Shown piece by piece: positions 11,081-59,745 of a DNA stretch of 64,000 nt. How positions within the stretch are numbered: position 1 is the first letter of the stretch; each line of letters opens with the position of its first letter. Under the pieces are notes generated by a model, which did not search any database, was not told the origin of the DNA, and saw nothing but the letters and a program-made list of their open reading frames with translations. Source of the DNA: Siphonodentalium dalli (lineage: Eukaryota; Mollusca; Scaphopoda; Gadilida; Siphonodentaliidae). The position numbers and the translations under genes were made by a program. Where the stretch lies: the NCBI GenBank assembly GCA_032622095.1, contig CP136066.1, positions 66,782,278 to 66,846,277 of the forward strand. The letters run 5' to 3'.

Positions 11081-11649
11081 TAAAAACACAAAGGGTGTAC
11101 ATCTGGTTGTGAGTTGGTTTATTCGTGTTATTGTCCACCCTCAATTAACCTATAAGTTATTATGAGTCGATAATGCATGCCACTAAAATACTCTCATTTT
11201 CAGTTCGTTATGGACTCAAAATGAGGCAATTCTACGCCGATTATGAACCTAAAACAGATCATATTATAAGTCGACAACGTGCTGATTTTCGTGAGAACAG
11301 ACTGACTATCAAGTCGATTCGATGTCAAGATCTGAACAACGACTCGGTGTTCCTGAAAGCCCATGGCGGTTTGAAACATGAAATTGTGTTAACTTTTTTT
11401 TGACATGCCGGTTACGGGGATCAAAATAGTTCGCAAGATACGTCAACTACTCATATACGAACTGTATGCCTGGATATAACGTGAACAATTCAAAAGCGAA
11501 CAATATTATTCGTATTTTGGAGCACAAACCGCCATGTGGCTTCAAGATGAATACCATGAAAACAATTCCAGTGTAAACATTAACAATTTAATAAAGAACA
11601 TGTACATTCAGTAATCTAATCTCAAATATTGTGTATATTACTTCCACAG

Positions 11650-12041
11650 GTGACAAACGATACGATGGTGTTCAGAAATTTCGTTAGTTATCATGAGGGG
11701 TCACGTGACGATGAAGTTTTGGCTGGCGATCGCTGGAGAATCCACTTTGAGTGTCAGGTTTCAACCACAGGCACAGGTTCGGCCGTCGTTAAACCTGGCG
11801 AGGTGGTCGAACACACCATAGTAAACCAAGGCCACCACTTCGGACCTTTCATCGGGTTTTATGAAGATCCCGATTACACTAATATTATATCAGGGAACCC
11901 GCTGAAAATAATAACTGGAGAACAGGTATACACAAGGCTATATATATCCAACGACACTGATGTAAAGATGGTGGTACATCGATGCTATGCTGTCCCAGAC
12001 TTCGTCCACAACGCAACACAGTACAACCTCATTATGAACGG
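11650..12041 (+). CDS. gene 1 exon: ZP-C subdomain, main part
   Basis: Acceptor 'ttacttccacag' and donor aacgg|gtgagttt. The 392 bp exon encodes VTNDTMVFRNFVSYHEG, an 'IHFECQV' strand, a long middle with 'GFYEDPDYTNII', then VHRCYAVPDF and YNLIMNG. This order matches ZP-C (N.V, I.F.C.., C.ATP..., Y.LI.NGC). The Gly codon is split and completed by the first base of the next exon, which begins with Cys, restoring the conserved NGC. N-glycosylation sequons NDT and NAT are visible. It begins on a codon boundary, matching the ZP-N exon. Confidence 0.85.
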
Positions 12042-13781
12042 GTGAGTTTGATACTATGATATTGAGAGCAACTAAATATATTCTAAACAGAGAATTATAC
12101 CACAACTGATGGGGCAGGTTTTTTTTATTACGAAACATACATACGGCGTAATCGATCCGAGGTTTCGTTGTTTAGCACGGAGGATTCGATGGGATGCCAA
12201 CGAGGGTTCGAGCATTTTTGGTGCATTTTTTGTGTGTTATTAAAATGTGGTAATTCATGAAATGAGGTTCACTGCTGGATACTAAACATGTAAATGCTAA
12301 CATTTGGTAGTTTGTCGAGTGGGGAAACCCTTATTACACATGTATATGCCGTCGACTGGGTGTAGATGGTGCCGGGTATGAAAATATCTTGTTCACTAGT
12401 CAGGTATACTGTCAACGGGAATAAAATCAGTGCACATAATAAAACCCTCGGTAGTTCTAACTCAATGTTCACAGTTTTGCATTGCCTAAGATATGCGACG
12501 ATATCTTGTCAACTCGCACTGTGATTTTCAGCTCACAACACGTTGGAATATCCGATATAATTAAGAAGTGAGGCGGGGTATAAACAAAAATGTCAACGTG
12601 ATTGTCAACGAGGGTTCGCTATGCAGACATTACAATAAATATACCAGGGATGCCCGACACTGTGGCCTGTTGGCGTCTCATGAAGGTCACTGGAGCTTTT
12701 AGCCATTGGCCATGGCTCATTGTGTGTGGAAAACAAAACACCACCGATGAATATATTTGTATTTAGTATACACAAACTGACTAACCTGGTTTGAAATAAC
12801 GAGAATGATTATATACATTGCGTTTCCAGAAGTCAATGTATATACTGACATATTATCCTTTGATTGGATGAAGCACCATCACATGTCATCACCTATCAAA
12901 GTATCGCCTGGCTAGTCTTTAAACTATTATGTTTTGTACATGTATTACCTTCCTTTGAATTAGGAGAACCCCATCATAAACGGGTCGATAAAAAATAAGT
13001 ATTGCGATATGTGCTTAAAATACTTGTTAAAATATATAGGAGCATAAACACGAGGACTTGTTAGCTTCGTGAGTTAAAGGTCAGGGTTTTTGTTTTTGTT
13101 TTGTTTTGTTATTTATTTATTATTTATTTATTTACATGACCGGTTATTGGTCTTGGAGGGCCGTACAACTCTTATACATTGCTTACGTGTATGTTAGCTA
13201 TGAGTTCAGCTGTTGTTTCAGGGTGTAAGTGCGTCGTGCGTGAACGGAATATAAGTTGTCACGCGCATACATTTCAATTCGTTTATTGATGCTGATATCA
13301 AGTGGTTTAATGATTTAAAGTTTGGTACAGTGTGTCGCTATTTGTGTCAAGAGTTCATGGTTATTGTTCAGTGTTGTTTTGTCCAGGATATCAGGATATT
13401 CATATTTTATTGATGAATCCACATCTGTGTTTGGCGAATGGCTCACATATTCATATAAAGTAAATAGGTCTTTATTGCCTGTATTGCTTATTTGACATAC
13501 TGGGTTTGTCGCTGTATATAAAACTGTCTTCATTCTATCCTTCTTTTGTACATACTGTATTTTCTCAATTTCCTGAGAATATAGCATATATATAAATCAA
13601 ATTTGATCTGAATAGTTTTCTATTCGTGTGTAGCAAGAATATGTTTGTCATGATCAATACCTTGATTATAGCCTTTTTGCAGGCGGCGGACGAGTTTTTA
13701 GTTGTGGCCCAAACGATATGAGGTATATTTGCAGTCATTTTGCAGTTTCATATTTAATTAACTTTTGTTGTTAAATAATCA

Positions 13782-22090: not shown

Positions 22091-22879
22091 GTACCGAAGG
22101 ATTTAGTCACCAAAGAGTAAGATACAAGATGGCTGCCAGCGGCTATGTTTTTCATTGAAAATTGTTAAACGTTGATAGCTCTCATCTAGAGGTGATCCTA
22201 AAAATGCCTGTAATTTTTAAAAGCAGTTCTCCAATAATTGTGGGCTATATTGATATAAAATATAAATATTAAACCTAATAGATATTCACCATACTATCAT
22301 GCTAGGGGGAGAGGATTCACAACTCTGAAAAAAAAATCAGATCGTTCACAGAATTGAAAACCCACTTGCCAAAAATCCATGCTTTCAGTCTCCATTTGGG
22401 ATAAAAAAAAGTTTAGCCAAAATTTTAGCCAAATGAAAATTTTATTAGCCAAATTCGAAAAAGATTAGCCATTGGCTAATTTGGCTACCGACAGCGCGAA
22501 CACTGGTAATACTACATTTTTTCCCAATAACTCAGAATAACTTTGATGTCACTTTTCAGCTCAAATCGCAATTCTTATCAGCGCTAGTTAATTATGCGAC
22601 ATTTGTCACATGTCTCTATTACCTGTTCCACGGTGGGGAATACCGAGTTGATGAGAATCACGCATTCAAAATGGCCGAGGCGATCGAAAACGCCACCAGA
22701 AGCGAGGAAACTGTAATAAACTAAGATATGACATATTATAAAGTTATTATACAATGTTGTGTACAGCACTGACATAGCTTTATGACGAATCGAAGGTCAA
22801 AATGGTGAGAGTTTACATGCATTAAAAAAAACCAAACAAACAACAATAAGCATTCTACTTCTGAGTAAAGTTTCAGTGT

Positions 22880-24291
22880 TTCACCAAAGAAACAAAGTCG
22901 TGAAGAGAAGCAATCACATGATAGTGGGTCGTCTGAGAGAAGATTACTGTCAGGAAAGTGCATTATCAAAGAAACTTTATTGTGGAGATAAACTATCTGA
23001 TGATATCGGGTCGTCTGAGAGAAGGTTACTGTCAGCAGAGTGCATTATCAAAGAAAGTTTGTTGTGGAGATAAACTATCTGATGATATCGGGTCGTCTGA
23101 GAGAAGGTTACTGTCAGGAAAGTGCATTATCAAAGAAACTTTGTTGTGGAGAAAAACTATCTGATGATATCGGGTCGTCTGAGAGAAATGTTCATTCAAA
23201 TGAACAGTCATCACCCAAGACAAACTTTAATTCTTCTGCTGATCCCATATATGGTGTAAGTGGTGACTATCTTCCCGACCTCGATTCACTCAGACTCAGC
23301 GACTCAAATGATTTTGAAGATCTTTTGCAGTTTTCGATCAGGGAATCATCGCGTCCTCTAAACAGCACAGTTGAATTTGGCAGAAGAGAGGGTAACGGTG
23401 ACTTAGGTGAGCTTGAGGAAACTCTACCAGTGTTGCATTTCCATCGACTTCCTCCACCTAAAAACAAATTTCCAACAGAAATATGATTGCACAGCTCACG
23501 TGTTCAACGAGACTTAATAATGCTAAGAAAATGAGATTATAAATACTAGTACAAATGATATATCTGTAACAATGGTTCTGCCAAATGGAACTGAGGAGAC
23601 AGGTCAGGATAATGGATGTGTTCTAAAGGATGCTCTGACAGTACTGGGACACTTTTTACAGCAAAGGGACAAGTGGATGACTGTCAAAGGTACCATTCAT
23701 AAGACATGACGTGAGGCAAGAGTGGCTGTGATCACGGTAGTTGGCTTCAATGTCGTTAAGTATTTTCCCGTGAGAATAGCGCCAGTATTTCTCCAACATG
23801 TTTTGGGAAATTCAATAAGTGACGAGTGAATCATCAAATGCTACAAAGACTTTATTCCTGAAAAATAAAAATAATTAATAATGAACCCAATTGAAGATTT
23901 CAACAATGAAGACTTTTTGGACTTCCTAAGCAACCATGATTTGAAATCATTAGTTAATTCTTCCAACTGGTCGAAAATTTTAATTGAAATTGCACATAAA
24001 GAATTCAGGCACCAGCATACTTGGCTGATTGTTGGTCTGTTGTATTAAAAAATTTGCCCAACAATTATCAAATGAAATTGATGATCTGATAACAGGATTG
24101 ACTCCAAAGTCGAAGCACGTACTGGCACTGTTGGTATTTGACGGTATGAATGATGACCGCAAAGTGGCTGATTATCTGAACAAAATTGTTCAAAAAGAGT
24201 AATGGTGAGAGATTGAGAAAGTTCTTGAGGTTTTGTACAGGTATGTTAAAGACATTGTGCGTCCATTAATATGTTTCAAACTGATAACTGA
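22880..24291 (+). pseudogene. HECT-like (G2E3-type) ubiquitin ligase pseudogene, copy 1
   Basis: Frames 1-2-3 together show pieces of a HECT-domain protein of the kind expanded in fish and invertebrates. In order: an acidic Ser-rich stretch (DYLPDLDSLRLSDSNDFEDL), VLPNGTEETGQDNG (23575 on), IRHDV..EW, KYFPVRIAPVFLQH, then DFLSNHD, EIAHKE, and near the end LRKFLRFCTG. RFCTG is a HECT C-lobe-like landmark. Stops and frameshifts break it (for example after 'cataagacatga' and 'gacgagtga'), and the catalytic Cys region was not found. The 82 bp repeats at 22920-23190 lie at its 5' end. The family call is from memory of motif order and needs a profile search. Confidence 0.58.
22924..23190 (+). repeat. 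82 bp tandem repeats, copy 1 of duplication
   Basis: The word 'gggtcgtctgagagaa' occurs at 22926, 23008, 23090 and 23172, an 82 bp period. Since 82 is not a multiple of 3, each unit is read in the next frame, and three overlapping open frames result. The matching block in unit 2 is at about 25088-25340. Confidence 0.8.
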
Positions 24292-25039
24292 ATATTCATG
24301 TAGTATGATGGTTCCTAGAAGAATTAAATGAACAATATTCATTCAGAAAAATTTAGTCATATCAGATTCAGTTGTATCGTTTCAAAAATGCAGGTTATCA
24401 CTTTTCTGTCAAACCGAAGGATGTAGTCATGCAAAGCGTAAGATACAAGATGGCTGCCAGCGGCTATGTTTTTCATTGAAATTGTTAAACTTTGATAGCT
24501 CTCATCTAGAGGTGATCCTAAAAATGCCTGTAATTTTGGAAAGCAATTCTCCAATAATTGTGGGCTATATTGATATAAAATATAAATATTAACCTAATAG
24601 ATATTCACCATACTATCATGCTAGGGGAAAGGGGATTCACAACTCTGAAAAAAATATTACTCCCATCCATACAAATGACACAATTTCATAAAACAAGAGC
24701 CACCATGAAAATTAGTAATACTACATTTTTTTCCAATAACTTTGATGTCACTTTTCAGCTCAAATCGCAATTCTTATCAGTGTTAGTCAATTATGCGAAA
24801 CGTGTCGTCACATGTCCTCTATTACCTGTTCCACGGTGGGGAGTCACGAGTTGGTGAGTATCACGCATTCAAAATTGTAATAAACTAAGATATGACAGAT
24901 TATAAAGTTATTATACAATTTTGTGTACAGCACTGACATAGCTTTATGACGAATCGAAGGTCAAAATGGTGAGAGTTTACATGCATTAAAAAAAACCAAA
25001 CAAACAACAATAAGCATTCTACTTCTGAGTAAAGTTTCA

Positions 25040-26241
25040 GTGTTTCACCAAAGAAACAAAGTCGTGAAGAGAAGCAATCACATGATAGTGGGTCGTCTGA
25101 GAGAAGATTACTGTCAGGAAAGTGCATTATCAAAGAAACTTATTGTGGAGATAAACTATCTGATGATATCGGGTCGTCTGAGAGAAGGTTACTGTCAGCC
25201 GAGTGCATTATCAAAGAAAGTTTGTTGTGGAGATAAACTATCTGATGATATCGGGTCGTCTGAGAGAAGGTTACTGTCAGGAAAGTGCATTATCAAAGAA
25301 ACTTTGTTGTGGAGATAAACTATCTGATGATATCGGATCTTCTAAGAGAAATGTTCATTCAAATGAACAGTCATCACCCAAGACAAACTTTAATTCCTCT
25401 GCTGATCCCATATCTGGTGTAAGTGGTGACTATATTCCCGACCTCGATTCACTCAGACTCAGTGACTCAAATGATTTTAAAGATCTTTTGCAGTTCGCGA
25501 TCAGGGAATCATCGCTTCCTCTAAACAGCACAGTTGAATTTGGCAGAAGTGAGGGTGAATATGACTTAGGTGAGCTTGAGGAAACTCTACCAGTGTTGCA
25601 TTTCCATCGACTTCCTCCACTTAATAACAAATTTCCAACAGAAATATGATTGCACAGCTCACGTGTTCAACGAGACTTAATAATGCTGTGAAAATGAGAT
25701 TATAAATACAAGTACAAATGATATATCTGTAACAATCGTTCTGCCAAATGGAACTGATGAGACGGGCCAGGATAATGGATGTGTTCTAAAGGATGCGTTG
25801 ACAGTACTGGGACACATTTTACAGCAAATGGACGATTGTCAAAGGTTTCAACGATGAAGACTTTTTGGGCTTCCTGAGCAACCATGATGTGAACTCATTA
25901 GTTAATTCTTCCAACTGGTCGAAATTTTAATTGAAATTGCACATAAAGAACTCAGGAACCAGCATACTTGGCCGATTGTTGGTCTGTTGTATTAAAAAAT
26001 TTGCCCAACAATTACCTATGAAATTGATTATCTGATAACAGGATTGACTCCAAAGCCGAAGCACGTACTGGCACTGTTGGTATTTGATGGTATGAATGAT
26101 GATGACCGCAAAGTGGCTGATTATCTGAACAAAATTGTCAAAAAGAGTGATGGTGAGGGATTGAGAAAGTTCTTGAGGTTTTGTACAGGTATGTTAAAGA
26201 CATATTGTGCGCTCATTAATATGTTTCAACCTGACAACTGA
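25040..26241 (+). pseudogene. HECT-like pseudogene, copy 2
   Basis: Same order of pieces as copy 1: 82 bp repeats, an acidic Ser-rich frame (to 25649), VLPNGTDETGQDNG (25736 on), DFLGFLSNHD-like, EIAHKE, and a final open frame with LRKFLRFCTG (26044-26241). About 150 bp covering the IRHDV and FPVRIAPVF parts is deleted ('gattgtcaaagg' joins directly to 'tttcaacgatgaagac'). Stops and frameshifts remain, so it cannot encode the full domain. Family call as for copy 1. Confidence 0.58.
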
Positions 26242-29606: not shown

Positions 29607-30055
29607 ATGAGAGCACACTTTCAAGATTCAAGCTCTCACGGGATATTAACCATTTTTTATTCTAATGGAATCTCCAATTTAATTATAAAAATATATAATC
29701 GCCTGCCAATGAACATCAGGCGCTGTCACTATGTAGAAAGTTTTAAAAAGTTGCTGAAAACATATCTGATTCGTCAATGTTTTCAGTTGCTCAATTGACA
29801 TTATTCGCACTTATTTTGGATTCACTGATATTTCATATTTTCTCGATTCGTGATTTGTTACTTTTTAGCTGTGTACGTAGCTGTTTTTAGGTAGTATTTT
29901 AATGCTCCCAGGCCTCTTTTAAACTCACATATCTTTTAGTATCCATATTGTGTTATCTCTTTGTTTTAAACTGTATTTCTATTGTAAAGCGCATTGAAAC
30001 TAATTTACTGTCTAATGCGTTTTTAAATGTAAATATAATAATATGTTCAGGCAGG
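29607..30055 (+). mobile_element. LINE 3' terminus, unit 1
   Basis: A 63-codon frame contains IYNRLPMNIRR and SFKKLLKTYLI, resembling the C-terminus of non-LTR retrotransposon ORF2 ('WN.LP..IR...S...FK..LK'). AT-rich sequence and an 'aaagcgcattgaaacta' word follow, typical of LINE 3' tails. The equivalent in unit 2 is 32391-32835. Confidence 0.55.
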
Positions 30056-30847
30056 GCGTGGTGACTGGGTTGTCTAACCCCACACAGTTTGGTAAACAGT
30101 TGGAATTGTTCTCATTGTTTGATTTTCCAACCAGTAATTGGTGGGACCTTTGATGTTTTTAGACAAACAGTAGCATATTTTTCTACTTTGGGTCAATTTG
30201 CAGTTGGTGAGGAATTTGTTGCTTTTAGACCAACAGGATAGAACTGTTTACATCAACGCTAAAATGTATAGTAATACAATACCGTTGTACATATTAGTGT
30301 TCATTCCAAACAGTTTGAGTGCACATGTCCCGGGCATATAATCGATCATAACACGAAAGTACCCAATATATATATATATGTATGTTTAGTGTTATGAACC
30401 ACAGGTATTAGGCACAATTTTTTTTAATTTGATGAAAAATATATATTTTTATTTTTGGCCAAATTTGTTTTTGGCCGAATACCTGTGTTATGAACAAATT
30501 TGTGTCAGGGATCTGTGCTTGAGTGTAATTCGGGTTTACACATTTATTGCTTGGGCAAGAAATCTCTCACAGATGTCAGTATCCGTAAACACTAACATGG
30601 CGGTTTGCATTCCAAAATACAAATAATATTATTAGATACTAGTAGTTGATTTTTTCCCGGTATCGAAATAGGTCGATAATATCTGAAATACCTTTCTACG
30701 AACATTATGTAACCCAAAAAGATCGGATAAGTTACCGCCGGTTATTCTGGTGGTTGTGGTGGTGGTGGTGTGGGGGGGGGGGTGTATTTGTGGATGGTAA
30801 TGTAGCGATCAATAATTTATAACCGCATATCTATAAGATGGTGCCGT

Positions 30848-31284
30848 GGAGACAGAAATTGCATACCATCTAACATCTCTAAACATATGGGGGAAAATAA
30901 GACCCTCTCTGATCTGCAGCATGTCTTTTGTCAACGAAACTCATTTGAAACACAACTCGTTATATTAGCTGGTGATCTCGTAAGACGCATTGCTGCAGGC
31001 CAGCATACCGATACTATTCTATTATATTTCAGTAAGGCCTTCGACGAGGTCGATCGTGGCAAATAGCTATATACACTTGAACATTATGGCATTGTTGGAA
31101 CATAAGTTAATTGGATCAGAGCCTTTCTTAATAACAGAACCCAAGTCGTAGTCCTGGAAGGGGGTGCCTCTTCAGAAATCTCAGTCACTTCAGCTTTGTC
31201 CTGGGGCCCATGTTTTTCTTCTCTACATCAACGATTTACCAAAGCACATTACCACTCAAACACGCCTATTTGCCGATGACACTG
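30848..31284 (+). mobile_element. truncated LINE reverse transcriptase, unit 1
   Basis: The frame contains NKTLSDLQHVFCQRNSFETQ, then FSKAFDEVDRG, and IRAFLNNRTQVVV. This is the start of a non-LTR reverse transcriptase domain (the 'QHGF...S.ETQL' and 'D.SKAFD.V.H' boxes). A TAG replaces Leu after the KAFDEVDRGK box and a frameshift follows. The copy ends just at the catalytic FADD box, where the duplication junction lies. It is inactive. Confidence 0.8.
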
Positions 31285-32390
31285 ACAACTGACAACTAAC
31301 TTATCAGTTTCACGCACCCGAACAAGTCCATAATATGTCTTTAATCTGGGTTCACGGTTAAATAGGGATTGATTTTCAAACGCAGAAACAGTTGCCGAGG
31401 TTAGGATTACATTTCGAAACAAGTATCCTTAATTAATTGGAAGGGTGATAACTCTAAATAGAACGTACTTTGACGAAGTAACTGAAATTTATATGGAAGA
31501 ATTTACAACACCACAATTGATCAACTTTGGTAAAATATAAGTCAAATTCTCCTATTTGGCTTTGAGCCTGTTTTATATTACGAGAACTTTCTTGAAAAGG
31601 ACTTCTTAAAATGTCTCCGCAATTTCGTCAATAATCTCAGTCTCAATCCTAACATCGCGTGCCACGTGTTATTGCGATTTAATACCAATCACTATCTAAT
31701 CATGAACCCCGATTAAGTATTTCTCTCTATCCAATCGTGTGTGTATTGGCTGGTTCGCTCGTATGTTCGGTGTGCAGTCAAGTCTGGACATAGTGTGTCT
31801 GACATATGGGGATGATTTTAGGGACGCTATTCCACATGGCGGGCTGGAATAACAAAATTCACCCTATCAGGGACCTCATTTTGCTTATGCCTCATCTTCT
31901 GGGAAGTATCTGAGGTATCAAATTAACATTGTTTTAGTTACTTTTTATATATAGGTCGATAAATAAACGAAATATTGATATACCGGTTGCATATGTTCTG
32001 AAAAACACTTTCCAAAGTCACAGCCATTTCCATTTATCGCCAGTCACATAAACGCTCTTTATTTCTACCATATCAGGAATAAACTAACACGGAACGCTCT
32101 TTTCTGCTCCATGTCGTGCAAATGGCTGTTCTTTTGAATTGCGACACATAGTTGAATGCGTCTAGTCGGGTTGTAGAATGCTCATGGAATGGTAGTTGAG
32201 ATAGACATCGACCTATATCGATACCGTGAAACATTCAAAAGTTAATAATATATGTAATTTGGAACGCAAACAGCCATGTGGTTTTAAATTGTCATTTCTG
32301 ATTTGAGATTGCATAATTTATCGTACTGACGCTCTTTAATTTCGGTAAATTAGTCCAAAGCGGATATAATCAGAGTTATTCGTAAAATAA

Positions 32391-32835
32391 TGAGATCACA
32401 CTTTCAAGATTCAAGCTCTCACGGGATATTAACGATTTTTATTCTAATGGAATCTCCAATTTAATTATAAAAATATATAATCGCCTGCCAATGAACATCA
32501 GGCGCTGTCACTCTGTAGAAAGTTTTTAAAAGTTGCTGAAGACATATCTGATTCGTCAATGTTTTCAGTTGCTCAATTGACATTATTCGCACTTATTTTG
32601 GATTCACTGATATTTCATATATTCTCGATTCGTGATTTGTTAATTTTTAGCTGTGTACGTAGCTGTTTTTAGGTAGTATTTTAATGCTCCCAGGCCTCTT
32701 TTAAACTCACATATCTTTTAGTATCCATATTGTGTTATCTCTTTGTTTTAAACTGTATTTCTATTGTAAAACGCATTGAAACTAATTTACTGTCTAATGC
32801 GTTTTTAAATGTAAATATAATAATATGTTCAGGCA
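32391..32835 (+). mobile_element. LINE 3' terminus, unit 2
   Basis: Copy of 29607-30055 in unit 2; the open frame is broken by a small deletion in a T run near 32431. Confidence 0.5.
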
Positions 32836-33539
32836 GGGCGTGGTGACTGTGTTGTCTAACCCCACACAGTTTGGTAAACAGTTGGAATTGTTCTCATTGT
32901 TTGATTTTCCAACCAGTAATTGGTGGGACCTTTGATGTTTTTAGACAAACAGTAGCATATTTTTCTACTTTGGGTCAATTTGCAGTTGGTGAGGAATTTG
33001 TTGCTTTTAGACCAACAGGATAGAACTGTTTACATCAACGCTAAAATGTATAGTAATACAATACTGTTGTACATATTAGTGTTCATTCCAAACAGTTTGA
33101 GTGCACATGTCCCGGGCATATAATCGATCATAACACGAAAGTACCCAATATATGTATGTTTAGTGGTATGAACAAATTTGTGTCCGGGATCTGTGCTTGA
33201 GTGTAATTCGGTGTTACACATTTAGTGCTTGGGCAAGAAATCTCTCACATATGTCAGTATCCGTAAACACTAACATGTTAAAGCCACATGGCGGTTTGCG
33301 CTCCAAAATACAAATAATATTATTAGATGGTTGATTTTTTTCCGGTATCGAAATAGGTCGATAATATCTGAAATACCTTTCTACGAACATTATGTAACCC
33401 AAAAAGATCGGATAAGTTACCGCCGGTTATTCTGGTGGTTGTGGTGGTGGTGTGGGGGGATGTATTTGTGCATGGTAATGTAGCGATCAATAATTTATAA
33501 CCGCATATCTATAAGATGGTGCCGTGGAGACAGAAATTG

Positions 33540-34490
33540 CATACCATCTAACATATCTAAACATATTGAGGAAAATAAGACCCTCTCTGATCTGCAGAAT
33601 GTCTTTTGTCAACGAAACTCATTTGAAACACAACTCGTTATATTAGCTGGTGATCTCGTAAGACGCATTGCTGCAGGCCAGCATACCGATACTATTCTAT
33701 TAGATTTCAGTAAGGCCTTCGACGAGGTCGATCATGGCAAATTGCTATATACACTTGAACATTATGGCATTGTTGGAACATTTGATCAGAGCCTTTCTCA
33801 ATAACAGAACCCAAGTCGTAGTCCTGGAAGGGGGTGCCTCTTCAGAAATCTCTGTCACTTCAGCCCATGTTTTTCTTCTCTACATCAACGATTTACCAAA
33901 GCACATTACCACTCAAACACGCCTATTTGCCGATGACACTGCTTTAAGCATGACAATAAATAACTCAAAGGATTCTATAACAGAGCTAAACAAAATATAG
34001 ACATTGCAGAATTGGGATATGGCCTTTAACCCGCCAAAATGTCAAGTCCTCACAGTCACCCGCAAAAAATCCATTATTTTGTATTACACCGTTCACTCTC
34101 AAGTCTTGACCACGTTTGTAATGCACGATATTTGAGAAACGAATTCACAAGCAATATTTCATTCTTTCACCACATACAACGAACAACTACAATTGTAAAT
34201 CAGGTCCTGGGTTTCCTAAAATGGAATGTTAAAACACAAACTAAGGCACGCAAGAAAGCAGCTTATCAGGCCATGGTTAGAGAAAAGCTGGAATATGCAG
34301 AAACCACTCAGGCATAGCATATACAGCAACGCTGACGTGTACATGTATCGTCGAATTCACACTGGTGCAAACTACTTTATATATTCATTCTTCCTAAGCA
34401 TAGCTATACTTTGGAACCAACTCCTGTCTGATCTGATCAGGCCCTCTGATCCTGACAGGCTCAGGCGGAGTTCCTATCAGCTTCAACCAT
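33540..34490 (+). mobile_element. longer LINE reverse transcriptase remnant, unit 2 and beyond
   Basis: Starts like unit 1 (NKTLSDLQNVFCQRNSFETQ) and keeps the DFSKAFDEVDHGKLLY box, LLYINDLP and the catalytic FADDTALS (33920-33950). It continues past the duplication end with WDMAFNPPKCQVL, LGFLKWNVKTQTKARKKAAY and a LEYA box, order as in CR1/Jockey-like elements. Missing bases near 33780 and 33865 remove the conserved 'GVPQGS..GP' box, and stops break it later. It is a dead copy in intron 1 of gene 2, in the same orientation as the gene. Confidence 0.82.
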
Positions 34491-42462: not shown

Positions 42463-42585
42463 GGGTCCGAGCTGGTGATGTATGCGGCGCCACATGCTAT
42501 TCCTCCAACACAAAGTGTACAAGTCATGTATGTGTGTGTTACCCGTACACATACTCTGCAATGGGCTCTGGTGACTGTGCTTACG
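42463..42585 (+). CDS. gene 2 exon 5: third six-Cys module
   Basis: Acceptor 'cgaatttttcag' and donor tacg|gtgagt. Two leading bases complete Gly with exon 4. The translation has AGDVCGATC, SNTKC, HVCVC and GSGDC, the same six-Cys spacing as exons 3 and 4, with the shared GD.C and NT.C positions. Its 123 bp length equals exon 3. The last base joins 'at' of exon 6 to make Asp, followed at once by the first CTLD cysteine. This fits a stalk of three disulphide modules carrying the lectin domain. Confidence 0.78.
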
Positions 42586-45424: not shown

Positions 45425-46075
45425 CAACGACTCGTGAAAATTGTTATAACGACTGACACCGTTATAACGACTTACAACGACTAGCAATTCGTTATAACGA
45501 GTTGTACTGTAAGTCGTTATTGCGACTTGCAAGTCGTTATAACGACTTGTTGGATGTCTTGGACCTGGCTACTATGAAAATTTGCAAGTCGTTATAACGA
45601 GTTGTAAGTCGCTTGAGTACGATGGGTCCTGCTACCTGGTCAACATGGTTCTCTCGTTGTAGATTGTGTAGTACGATGGGTCCTGTAAATGGATTGACAG
45701 TTCCACTATTTGTGGATATTCTATTTGTTTGGCATAAACCTAGCTATACATTTACGAAAGCACATTAGGACAACCCGAAACACCACTCCCAAATATACAA
45801 CTCGTTATAACGACGTGCAAGTCGTTATAACGTCTTCCAACAACTCCTTATAACGACTTACAACTCATTATAACTACTAGCAAGTCGTTATAACGACTTC
45901 CAACAACGATTTGTGAAAATCGTTATACGACATATAACTCATTATATCGACCAGCAATTCGTTATAGCGAGTTGTTACGATTTTCACAGCTCGTAGCGAG
46001 TAGTAAGTCGCTATTGCGACTTGCAAGTCGTCATAACGACTTGTTGGATGTCTTGAACCTTGAAAGTGGTTATAC
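45425..46075. repeat. cluster of CGTTATAACG palindromes with stray minisatellite fragments
   Basis: More than a dozen full or partial copies of 'aagtcgttataacgacttg' appear at 45425-45620 and 45790-46050. The block 45530-45549 is a perfect 20 bp palindrome (CAAGTCGTTATAACGACTTG). Pieces of the minisatellite ('gagtacgatgggtcctg', 'ctctcgttgtagattgtg') sit between the clusters at 45612-45690. The phrase 'ggacagttccactgtttgtggat' (45231) and 'ttgacagttccactatttgtggat' (45695) shows a degenerate duplication of about 465 bp. Confidence 0.75.
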
Positions 46076-46076
46076 C

Positions 46077-49000
46077 TGGTCGACATGATTATCTTGTTAT
46101 ATATCGCGTAAATCATGGTTAATCTTGAGTACGATGGTCCTGTTACCTGGTCGACATGATTCTCTTGTTATATATCGCGTAAATCATGGTGACCATCTTG
46201 AGTACGATTGGTCTTGTTGCCTGGTCGACATGATTCTCTTGTTATATATCGCGTGGATGATGGTTACCATCTTGAGTACGATTGGTCTTGTTGCCTGGTC
46301 GACATGATTCTCTCGTTGTATATGGCGTGGATGATGGTTACCACCTTGAGTACGATTGGTCCTGTTACCTGGTCGACATGATTATCTCGTTGTATATGGC
46401 GTGGATGATGGTTACCATCTTGAGTACGATGGGTTTGTTATCTGGTCGACATGATTATCTCGTTGTATATGGCGTAGATGATGGTTACCATATTGAGTAC
46501 GATGGGTCCAGCTACCTGGTCGACATGATTCTCTTGTTATATATCGCGTAGATGATGGTTACCATCTTGAGTACGATGGGTCTTGTTATCTGGTCGACAT
46601 GATTCTCTTGTTATATATCGCGTAAATCATGGTTACCATCTTGAGTACGATGGGTCCTGTTACCTGGTCGACATGATTCTCTTGTTATATATCGCGTAGA
46701 TGATGGTTACCATATTGAGTACGATGGGTCCTGTTACCTGGTCGACATGATTCTCTTGTTATGGTGACACTCCACAGTTTCAACAGGTATGGGCCCAGAA
46801 ATAGAGGGCCCATAGATTCATTGAAATTTATCTGAAATTAATACAGAATAGGCATTCAGAATTTGATACATAAATTCCATAATATATGGGCTATCAAGAG
46901 TTATGGCCCTTGATATTTTGATCGAATATGTGATTTTTATTCAAAAAATGACCAAAATATTGCATTTTCATACCCAAGAGGCACGAATACCAGATTTTTT
47001 CAAGCATGGTCACCTTTGTTGGTTTAAAGGCCTCTGGCTTCCAACATCAATGTGAACAAATTTCAAACTTTCGCCGTTGAATTTTCCAGAAAATCAATTT
47101 TTAATGCAGATGACAAATTTTGAGTGCTAAAAAATTGACCCAGTATCTAGAGCCACTGTTTCGCAGAAAACGCTACTGCTGTCTATGGGTGGGGTCAAGG
47201 TCACTTGCACTTAATTTTTTCATCAGTCTAGAACACCTTCTAAAATTACACAAATTCATATCCCACATTGTCTCAATATACATACCACATGAATGGTGCC
47301 AGAAACCACTAGCACTTTATATATCTATAAAATCACCCCTACTGATCATTCGAAACTGTGGAGTGTCACCTATATATCGCGTTGATGATGGTTACCATAT
47401 TGAGTACGATGGGTCCTGTTACCTGGTCGACATGATTCTCTTGTTATATATCGCGTAGATGATGGTTACCATATTGAGTACGATGGGTCCTGTTACCTGG
47501 TCGACATGATTCTCTCGTTGTATATCGCGTAGATGATGATTACCATCTTGAGTACGATGGGTCCTGTTACCTGGTCGACATGATTATCTCGTTATATATC
47601 GCGTAGATGATTATTACCATCTTGAGTACGATGGGTCCTGTTACCTGGTCGACATGATTCTCTTGTGATATATCGCGTAAATCATGGTTAATCTTGAGTA
47701 CGATGGGTCCTGTTACCTGGTCGACATGAATCTCTTGTTATATATCGCGTAAATCATGGTTACTATCTTGAGTACGATGGTCCTGTTACCTGGTCAACAT
47801 GATTCTCTTGTTATATATCGCGTAGATGATGATTACATCTTGAGTACGATGGGTCCTGTTACCTGGTCGACATGATTCTCTCGTTGTATATCGCGTAAAT
47901 CATGGTTACTATCTTGAGTACGATGGGTCCTGTTACCTGGTCGGCATGATTCTCTTGTTATATATCGCGTAAATCATGGTTACCATCTTGAGTACGATGG
48001 GTCCAGCTACCTGGTCGGCATGATTATCTCGTTGTATATGGCGTAGATGGTGGTTACCATCTTGAGTACGATTGGTCCTGTTACCTGGTCGACATGATTA
48101 TCTCGTTGTATATGGCGTAGATGATGGTTACCATCTTGAGTACGATGGGTCCTGTTACCTGGTCGACATGATTCTCTCGTTGTATATCGCGTAAATCATG
48201 GTTACTATCTTGAGTACGATGGGTCCTGTTACCTGGTCGGCATGATTCTCTTGTTATATATCGCGTAAATCATGGTTACCATCTTGAGTACGGTGGGTCC
48301 AGCTACCTGGTCGACATGATTCTCTTGTGATATATCGCGTAGATGATGGTTACCATCTTGAGTACGATGGGTCCTACTACCTGGTCGACATGATTCTCTT
48401 GTTATATATCGCGTAGATGATTATTACCATCTTCAGTACGATGGGTCCTGTCACCTGGTCGACATGATTCTCTTGTGATATATCGCGTAAATCATGGTTA
48501 CCATCTTCAGTACGATGGGTCCTGTTACCTGGTCGACATGATTCTCTTGTGATATATCGCGTAAATCATGGTTACCATCTTCAGTACGATGGGTCCTGTT
48601 ACCTGGTCAACATGATTCTCTTGTTATAGATCGCGTAGATGATGATTACCATCTTGAGTACGATGGGTCCAGCTACCTGGTCGACATGATTCTCTTGTTA
48701 TATATCGCGTAGATGATGGTTACCATATTGAGTACGACGGGTCCTGTTACCTGGTCGACATGATTCTCTTGTGATATATCACGGAAATCATGGTTACCAT
48801 CTTCAGTACGATGGGTCCTGTTACCTGGTCGACATGATTCTCTTGTGATATATCGCGTAAATCATGGTTACCATCTTCAGTACGATGGGTCCTGTTACCT
48901 GGTCGACATGATTCTCTTGTGATATATCGCGTAAATCATGGTTACCATCTTCAGTACGATGGGTCCTGTTACCTGGTCGACATGATTATCTCGTTGTATA

Positions 49001-49280
49001 TGGCGTTGATGATGGTTATGATCTTGAGTACGATGGCTCATGTTACCTGGTCGACATGATTCTCTCGTTGTAGATTGTGTGGATGATGGTTACCATCTTG
49101 AGTACGATGTGTCTTGTTACCTGGTCGACATGATTCTATCCTTGTATATGGCGTGGATGATGGTTATCATCTTGAGTACGATGGCTCTTGTTACCTTGTC
49201 GACTTGATTCTCTTGTTGTAGATTGTGTGGATGATGGTTACCATCTTGAGTACGATGGGTCCTGTTACCTGGTCGACATG
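46077..49280 (+). repeat. 74 bp minisatellite derived from the CTLD exon acceptor region, about 36 units
   Basis: The unit contains, in order, 'gatgatggttaccatcttga', 'gtacgatgggtcctgttacc', 'tggtcgacatg' and 'attctcttgttatatatcgc'. The first 54 bp equal the start of exon 6 (VDDGYHLEYDGSCYLVDM); the last 20 bp equal the pyrimidine tract and acceptor region before it. Copies follow each other from about 46077, broken only by a 608 bp insertion (46763-47370), and merge into the real exon at 49222. Since 74 is not a multiple of 3, the units cycle through frames. Units vary at a few positions (for example 'gttgtatatggcgtgg' against 'gttatatatcgcgta'). Confidence 0.92.
46763..47370. mobile_element. 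608 bp TIR element inserted in the minisatellite
   Basis: It starts GGTGACACTCCACAGTTTC and ends with the exact reverse complement, GAAACTGTGGAGTGTCACC (19 bp TIRs). TAT on both sides is a 3 bp target duplication: removing the element and one TAT restores the repeat text 'cttgttatatatcgcg'. The interior has an open frame without family resemblance (47120 on) and no recognisable transposase. Confidence 0.85.
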
Positions 49281-49398
49281 GTTGTCGACACGTGGATCAA
49301 CAGTAGAGACAGGTGTGACCAGCTCGGAGGAAAACTAGCGCTGGTCGATTCTCAGATCAAATGGGAAATTCTGAAGGATTTTCTCTTTTCAGTGGAAG
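49222..49398 (+). CDS. gene 2 exon 6: N-terminal half of C-type lectin domain
   Basis: Acceptor 'ctcttgttgtag' and donor gaag|gtacgt. Two leading bases complete Asp with exon 5. The translation gives CVDDGYHLEYDGSCYLV, then W.NSRDRCDQLGGKLALVDS. This is the start of a long-form CTLD: an extra N-terminal Cys pair (residues 293 and 306), then 'W..A...C...GG.LA.V' with Cys 323. The first 54 coding bases are the source or last unit of the adjacent minisatellite. Phase 1 at both ends agrees with neighbours. CTLDs bind sugars or proteins outside cells. Confidence 0.88.
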
Positions 49399-49713: not shown

Positions 49714-49862
49714 GGATAATCTGAACATATCGAGGAAAAGCCATTATATGTATACAAATTAATGATAATCTGAACATATCGAGGAAAAGCCATTATATGT
49801 ATACAAATTAATGATAATCTGAACATATCGAGGAAAAGCCATTATATGTATACAAATTAAAA
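49714..49862. repeat. three tandem copies of a 50 bp unit
   Basis: 'gataatctgaacatatcgag' followed by 'gaaaagccattatatgtata' begins at 49714, 49764 and 49813, nearly without differences, so the expansion is recent. The unit comes from the repeat family also seen at 1370-1560. Confidence 0.88.
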
Positions 49863-50508: not shown

Positions 50509-50833
50509 GCTGAAGGGGTCACTCTCACCAAAAAAAGTGCTGAAGGGTACACAGGATTTTCAAAATGTGCTGAAGAGTACACAGGGTTTGAAATGCCGTT
50601 CTAAAGGACATTCAGTTTTCGTATCTGCCATGATATCTGTTGGAGAATAATTTTAAACGTTCCAATGAATATTAAAATGTACTGAAAACAAACTGCTAAT
50701 GGGCGCCAGACTTTCATAAACACAATTTAAGTAACGGTGTTCGTGCCGAGTACACACCCTGTGTACCCTTCAGCACATTGTCAAACCCTGTGTACCCTTC
50801 AGCACTTTTTTTGGTGAGAGTGACCCCTTCAGC
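50509..50833. mobile_element. Mutator-like MITE, 325 bp
   Basis: Terminal inverted repeats GCTGAAGGGGTCACTCTCAC (left) and its complement (right) continue inward through 'gtgctgaagggtacacag', so each end holds repeated 'ctgaaggg' motifs. CATAGTAAT flanks both sides (50500-50508 and 50834-50842), a 9 bp target duplication as in the Mutator superfamily. No transposase is present. Confidence 0.78.
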
Positions 50834-51169
50834 CATAGTAATACCACAGTAACACAAGTTACACGTACGTGTGGCTGAACGTGCCTATTAGAACGTCTGT
50901 AGCTTGTTATTTTATGTATGGTGAGGTGTTATATAAAAACCAAGCTAGTATTTTACGTAAGTGTTCTCGTAAACTTTATCAGACATCAACTTATGATGCC
51001 TTTGAGATATTAAGTATAGTGTATTAGTGTAGTACAATTGTACTACGGTGCATTAATAAATTATCGTACATTATTTCGGTTTTACGAACAATTATCTGCA
51101 TGTGCATAAACAAATGGTTGTGTTTCTGTCTATTCTTTATCGTAGCATATATATATATATAGAGGATCT

Positions 51170-59506: not shown

Positions 59507-59745
59507 GAGTCGAGCTGTACACCGCCGTCTACATAGATGGGTCTGACCAAGGATCAGAAGGAACATGGCGCACAATCTCAGGTGACCCATCACCCTTTCT
59601 AAAATGGTGGAACACACAGCCGAATGGAGGGACCGGTCAGAACTGCTTGGGCATGTACCTTGCCATGAACGGATACGAGATGGGAGACGCACCGTGCTCC
59701 CCGGAGACAAGGTTGGCCATGTGTCAGTTTCAAACAATTGCATAG
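59507..59745 (+). CDS. gene 2 exon 7: C-terminal half of C-type lectin domain, stop
   Basis: The acceptor 'ttgtcaccgcag' leaves two bases completing Gly with exon 6. The translation (residues 352-429) has YIDGSDQGSEGTWRTISG, then WWNTQPNGGTGQNC, MGDAPC and MCQF, ending TAG. These match the CTLD 'W.DGSD..EG.W', the '.P.' calcium loop, NC and the two last cysteines. The calcium-loop motif is QPN, neither the EPN of mannose binders nor the QPD of galactose binders, and the usual WND is MGD (409-411). Calcium-dependent sugar binding is therefore uncertain. No anchor follows, so the product is soluble. Confidence 0.9.

Follow-up and report, generated by a model that had tools for sequence, protein, structure and literature searches.

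Tandem repeats of exon-intron boundaries, known as mirages, have been described in amphioxus in the Adh3 gene and in the globin genes BflGb6 and BflGb9 (PMC3087553), and additionally in PGBD5 and troponin C (PMC3902484). Mirages are said in these papers to vary in length and not to disturb splicing, and cephalochordates are the only taxon named for them in the available portions of both texts (PMC3087553, PMC3902484). An array of the same kind lies within the 64-kb window analysed here (the window being the whole stretch of DNA that was studied), in intron 5 of a predicted C-type lectin gene and directly before a lectin exon. The first-pass annotation knew of no described system of this exact form; however, the amphioxus mirages include one, BflGb6, in which the repeated segment likewise joins the 3' end of an intron to the 5' part of an exon (PMC3087553). 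Structurally, the present array can be classed as a mirage.

Extent and regularity of the array

The array before the lectin exon is real, and its position was defined on a gene model built from sequence alone. Units are numbered u01 to u35, and the features of the locus are as follows.

42463–42585, + strand: exon 5, with a phase-1 donor that fixes the frame of the exon 6 acceptor
45612–45686, + strand: degenerate unit piece that precedes the array and carries TAG in the acceptor position
46088–46762, + strand: 5' array block, consisting of u01–u09 and the first 13 bp of u10
46763–47370, no strand assigned: transposon-like insert of 608 bp that splits u10, ending in perfect inverted repeats of 19 bp and accompanied by a target duplication (TAT)
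47371–49206, + strand: 3' array block, consisting of the target duplication, the remainder of u10 and u11–u34
49207–49280, + strand: u35, the real boundary, comprising the intron end (49207–49221, 15 nt) and the initial 59 nt of exon 6
49222–49398, + strand: exon 6, the first half of the C-type lectin domain, with phase-1 acceptor and donor
59507–59745, + strand: exon 7, the second half of the lectin domain and the stop codon

A period of 74 was found by Tandem Repeats Finder over 46073–46762 and 47371–49280, and a decomposition anchored on the unit end gave 35 full 74-bp units (46088–49280), preceded by a 15-bp stub at 46073–46087. Spacing between units was exactly 74 in 29 of 35 cases and 71–73 in five, with a single spacing of 685 that is due to the insert in u10 and returns to 74 once the insert is removed. 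The earlier description of a 3.2 kb minisatellite of about 36 copies of 74 bp is thus retained as to the array and its period, but the count is 35 full units plus the stub, and 608 bp of the 3.2 kb belong to the transposon-like insert, of which no second copy was found within the 64-kb window. Pairwise identity of the aligned units averaged 0.895 (range 0.77–1.0), and 5 of the 595 unit pairs were identical. The array runs without a gap into exon 6, as had been proposed, with u35 (49207–49280) itself forming the genuine intron end and exon start of the gene to which the array belongs. Upstream, between 45230 and 46070, the degenerate unit piece is flanked by sequence that is palindromic and imperfectly duplicated and contains a 20-bp motif resembling TTATAACGACTTGCAAGTCG.

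The lectin exon behind the array

Translation of the exon behind the array gives CVDDGYHLEYDGSCYLVD..., and the remainder of the C-type lectin domain lies 10 kb further on. When joined, exons 6 and 7 scored 33.5 bits against the Pfam profile Lectin_C (PF00059; E 7.3e-08), above the curated cut-off of 22.6, whereas each exon singly fell below it (14.9 and 15.8 bits). Lectin_C was not listed for the tentative 429-aa join of the whole gene, perhaps through HMMER's filters. The joined domain also matched solved C-type lectins, with a best E of 3.5e-07. The first-pass annotation's view that a real lectin exon follows the array agrees with the profile score of the joined exons, and these predictions support the reading that exon 6 truly belongs to a lectin domain and did not arise from the satellite. 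In the structure matches listed (60 of 69), the alignment began at residue 9 at the earliest, and the residues encoded by the unit therefore form the N-terminal edge of the domain; the usual ligand-binding loop is presumably located in exon 7. Elsewhere in the gene, a PAN-like match in the first exon fell just below the cut-off (21.1 versus 21.4 bits), and Cys-rich exons were read by eye between this one and the lectin exons.

Unit anatomy and differences between exon and array

The exon 5 donor at 42585/42586 is in phase 1 and reads GTGAGT, and that of exon 6 then reads GTACGT. Because the phase-1 acceptor at 49221/49222 fits the exon 5 donor, the unit is divided into 15 nt of intron end and 59 nt of exon, which replaces the split of 20 bp and 54 bp given previously. 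All 35 units span the boundary in this 15 + 59 nt register, in line with the earlier claim that an exon boundary had been amplified in tandem inside the intron. The upstream piece at 45648 has GTT as its first three bases, identical to those with which the exon itself continues at 49281, and perhaps only 12 nt of the unit are therefore truly intronic.

At the real boundary the sequence is TTGTTGTAG/ATTGTGTGG, and the array consensus is TTGTTATATATCGCGTAG. Exon and consensus differ at five sites, all five within the 12 bp of unit positions 12–23, and are equal at the other 62 of 62 sites, whereas the columns that vary among units are spread along the unit (7 of 12 inside positions 12–23 and 33 of 62 outside). 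This clustering at the boundary gave P values of 0.0006 (Fisher) and 0.0013 (span test), which serve as guides only, the cluster having been noticed after looking. Death of the acceptor requires only the change at position 15, and not those at positions 18, 20 and 23. Confinement of the differences to the splice boundary is not predicted by purely neutral drift of the founder unit; it could reflect a complex mutation in the founder unit, selection against copies with a live acceptor, or exchange of the exon body with a sheltered boundary.

Acceptor and branch-point signals

An AG at the acceptor position is present in 3 of the 35 units (u27, u33 and u35) and missing in 32 of the 34 upstream units. 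The two upstream units that retain it are given below, with splice scores that, like all those in this section, come from a splice matrix that was not derived from the host species.

48615–48688, + strand: u27, with AG in the acceptor position and a potential exon start at 48630, scoring 6.8 and lacking a preceding yUnAy
49059–49132, + strand: u33, with AG in the acceptor position and a potential exon start at 49074, scoring 7.3 and preceded by a yUnAy at -34

On this matrix the u33 acceptor, 148 nt upstream of the real one, equals the real site (7.3 versus 7.28), and the next best acceptor in the array after u33, the real site and u27 scores 4.9. A second AG, 9 nt downstream of the acceptor position, occurs in 13 of the 34 upstream units with a mean score of 2.9 on the same matrix. 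Acceptors scoring at least 5 by this matrix numbered 2 in the 2,511 bp of array versus 89 in 24,740 bp of other intron stretches of the gene, a control that excluded about 40.6–42.6 kb and 45.2–46.09 kb, and donors scoring at least 5 by that matrix numbered 2 versus 99 in the same lengths. These counts are lower in the array, but the units of one repeat are not independent, and a depletion of splice sites was not accepted as a result. The first-pass annotation's suggestion that the array offers many weak acceptors does not hold, given the 32 of 34 upstream units without AG and the two acceptors of at least 5 in 2,511 bp; by these predictions the array does not appear rich in acceptors, and nothing beyond this is claimed. 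Its upstream part has one live-looking acceptor, that of u33, at which splicing is predicted to add 148 nt, shift the frame and reach a stop after 44 codons; predicted splicing at u27 reaches a stop after 27 codons. Loss of the AG probably renders most copies harmless, in keeping with the undisturbed splicing ascribed to mirages. The loss is common by descent and may be a single event, and selection against live copies does not follow from it.

Branch points usually lie in the intron stretch upstream of the acceptor, beyond 12–15 nt. As the unit contains only 12–15 nt of intron, the usual branch-point region before the real acceptor consists of exon-derived sequence. A yUnAy motif within the 50 nt before the acceptor position was found in 2 of 35 units, u33 (CTCAT, A at -34) and u35 (TTGAT, A at -15), and the latter, at the u34/u35 junction (A at 49207), is the only motif of this kind that precedes the real site within that distance. 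Both of these units retain the AG, while u27 has an AG without yUnAy; the chance of both yUnAy units falling among the three AG units was calculated by hand as 3/595, a guide only, as the coincidence was noticed after looking.

Evolution of the array

Adjacent units differed at 6.1 positions versus 7.8 overall (P 0.0002; Mantel r 0.22, P 0.0014). Closest to the exon, the upstream units u32–u34 carried 9.3 changes from the consensus versus 4.3 in the other 31 upstream units, with a P of 0.0003 that is affected by these units having been singled out after inspection. Units are thus homogenised inside the array, with its exon-side edge excluded, and the likeness of neighbours and the divergence of the units next to the exon can be read as signs of slippage or unequal exchange. 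In a tree of the units, u33 paired with u35 (0.90) and u32 with u34 (0.84), and the latest event at the exon end therefore looks like a 148-bp dimer duplication, which would have copied the whole 3' splice site. The dimer u32u33 is the nearest to u34u35, at 11 differing sites (the next being at 17), and this pair ranks 125th of 561 dimer pairs. Units u09 and u11, which flank the split u10, are identical, and the insert is therefore later than that local expansion.

Among the distinct variants in exon-derived codons, 12 of 36 were synonymous (null 9.0, P 0.11) and none was a stop (null 1.3, P 0.21). Selection on the units was considered and rejected, as a raw ratio of 0.48 was lost once mutation type was controlled, and the units were treated as neutral.

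Other sequences in the window

A duplicated block of approximately 1.1 kb at 22400–25800 (91 % identity) contains an array of 82 bp x 3.3 in each copy. These arrays (22918–23187 and 25082–25350) were considered as a second exon-boundary array, and no splice boundary was seen in them; the ORF beside them shows 2 synonymous and 12 other changes between the copies, and hence no coding signal. A 49-bp unit is repeated three times with a 100 % match at 49715–49860, approximately 320 bp past exon 6, and at 50513–50840 the sequence around GTGCTGAAGGGTACACAGG has an inverted copy approximately 200 bp on, which by eye is a possible foldback element. Two block copies at 29903–34000 carry reverse-transcriptase-like fragments (at 30806 and 33484), the RVT_1 match in the second being sub-threshold (18.7 bits against a cut-off of 29.6). 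An ORF at 11620–12045 has a Zona_pellucida match above the cut-off (28.8 versus 24.6 bits), a sign of another animal gene. Across the window, Rfam at the gathering threshold gave no matches and ARAGORN no genes.

Explanations of the array

The locus is probably best explained, with considerable though incomplete confidence, as a mirage-type minisatellite that arose by tandem duplication of the boundary and expanded through the spread of copies with a dead AG, displacing the branch point. This explanation starts from what can be read in the sequence itself, namely the boundary identity, the unit structure, the loss of AG in 32 of 34 units, the local homogenisation, the diverged exon-side edge and the later insertion. 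A 74-bp segment joining the last bases of intron 5 to the first of exon 6 would have been duplicated in tandem, and slippage or unequal exchange would then have grown it to approximately 35 units. As 74 is not divisible by 3, any duplicate whose acceptor stayed live would bring in a frameshift, and the copy able to spread would therefore be one with a dead AG (TAG to TAT). Such copies would leave with the spliced intron and drift almost neutrally. The native branch-point region would now lie on the far side of the array, so that exon 6 would depend either on a remote branch point or on one within exon-derived sequence, and the 608-bp element would have inserted into the array later. As it stands, the array is most likely near-neutral. 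Against this explanation, u27 and u33 retain the AG, 13 of the 34 upstream units have an AG 9 nt downstream, and the candidate branch point at -15 lies very close to the AG.

It is improbable that the array instead acts as a donor of sequence, with gene conversion between units and exon diversifying the first 19–20 residues of the lectin domain. In favour of this role, near-copies of the exon start lie in cis, and 33 of their 62 columns outside positions 12–23 vary; the exon equals the array consensus at 62 of 62 sites there and departs from it only close to the splice boundary (Fisher P 0.0006, as a guide), but an exon that is simply ancestral and conserved yields the same identity. Moreover, the units are without a sign of selection, the copied codons belong to the N-terminal edge of the domain rather than to the presumed ligand-binding loop of exon 7, and the reading is based on a single exon 6 allele. 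Conversion into the first 18 codons of the lectin domain had been raised in the first-pass annotation; over positions 24–74, single units differ from the exon at a mean of 2.7 sites and only 1 of 34 (u20) has no difference, and exchange with this single allele is therefore not evident unit by unit. The narrower proposition that the exon body (positions 24–74) and the array still exchange sequence, with the splice boundary (positions 12–23) kept apart because conversion tracts with a dead acceptor break the gene, is likewise doubtful. If true, the array would be a reservoir of variants for the lectin exon, and would also preserve a record of selection acting on a 3' splice site that had taken its branch point from duplicated coding DNA.

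Regulation of splicing by the array, with u33 as an alternative acceptor giving a truncated lectin or lower expression tuned by array length, has a small chance of being correct. The u33 site matches the real one in score (7.3 versus 7.28, on the above matrix), has both AG and a yUnAy at -34, and its use would add 148 nt and bring a stop after 44 codons; however, u33 may be a recent functionless copy from the dimer duplication, and the Adh3 and globin mirages are reported not to disturb splicing in the text available (PMC3087553). An error of assembly, by which the length or order of the array would be wrong or the array inflated, is very improbable: the basis is a single assembled sequence, and aberrant assembly of one mirage array is reported for a draft genome (PMC3087553), but 30 of the 35 units are distinct or nearly so (5 identical pairs of 595) and the array contains a single-copy insert, whereas collapse or looping during assembly should leave a larger number of identical copies.

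Comparison with known systems

Interpreted as a mirage-type minisatellite, the locus poses the question of how a gene survives when its own acceptor is repeated dozens of times next to the real one. The general answer it suggests is that the copy that spreads has a dead AG, and that the real acceptor then finds its branch point in former coding sequence, which would make the locus a test case for splicing that survives duplication of its own signals. Should the host not be a lancelet, the taxonomic range of mirages, as given in the available text of PMC3087553 and PMC3902484, would be widened.

The 74-bp unit is of like order to those of the amphioxus mirages, at 10–72 bp in Adh3, 60 and 108 bp in PGBD5 and 150–160 bp in the globins (PMC3087553, PMC3902484), and the edges of the BflGb6 mirage are excluded from homogenisation, as in the array here (PMC3087553). 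Differences are found in the number of units, with 35 here versus 3 and 6 in two BflGb6 haplotypes, and in the acceptor AG, which is missing in 32 of 34 upstream units here whereas AG/GT signals occur in many, although not in all, of the globin repeats (PMC3087553). An inserted element also interrupts the present array, unlike the amphioxus mirages as described in the available text.

Minisatellites likewise occur at exon-intron boundaries in human segmental-duplication genes, and reach a similarly high number at the Morpheus loci, where a single repeat type can have as many as 39 copies (PMC2812944). The human boundary repeats have a mean unit of 30 bp x 4 and are exonic or becoming new introns (PMC2812944), whereas the array here is, on the gene model, wholly intronic. 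The Rogers model of intron gain by tandem duplication of AG/GT-bearing segments (cited in PMC3087553) similarly involves duplication across an exon segment, but here an existing intron was lengthened and no new intron was formed. Relative to the known mirages, as far as the consulted texts describe them, the array is unusual in its number of units, in its near-complete loss of acceptors, and in the confinement of exon-array differences to the splice boundary.
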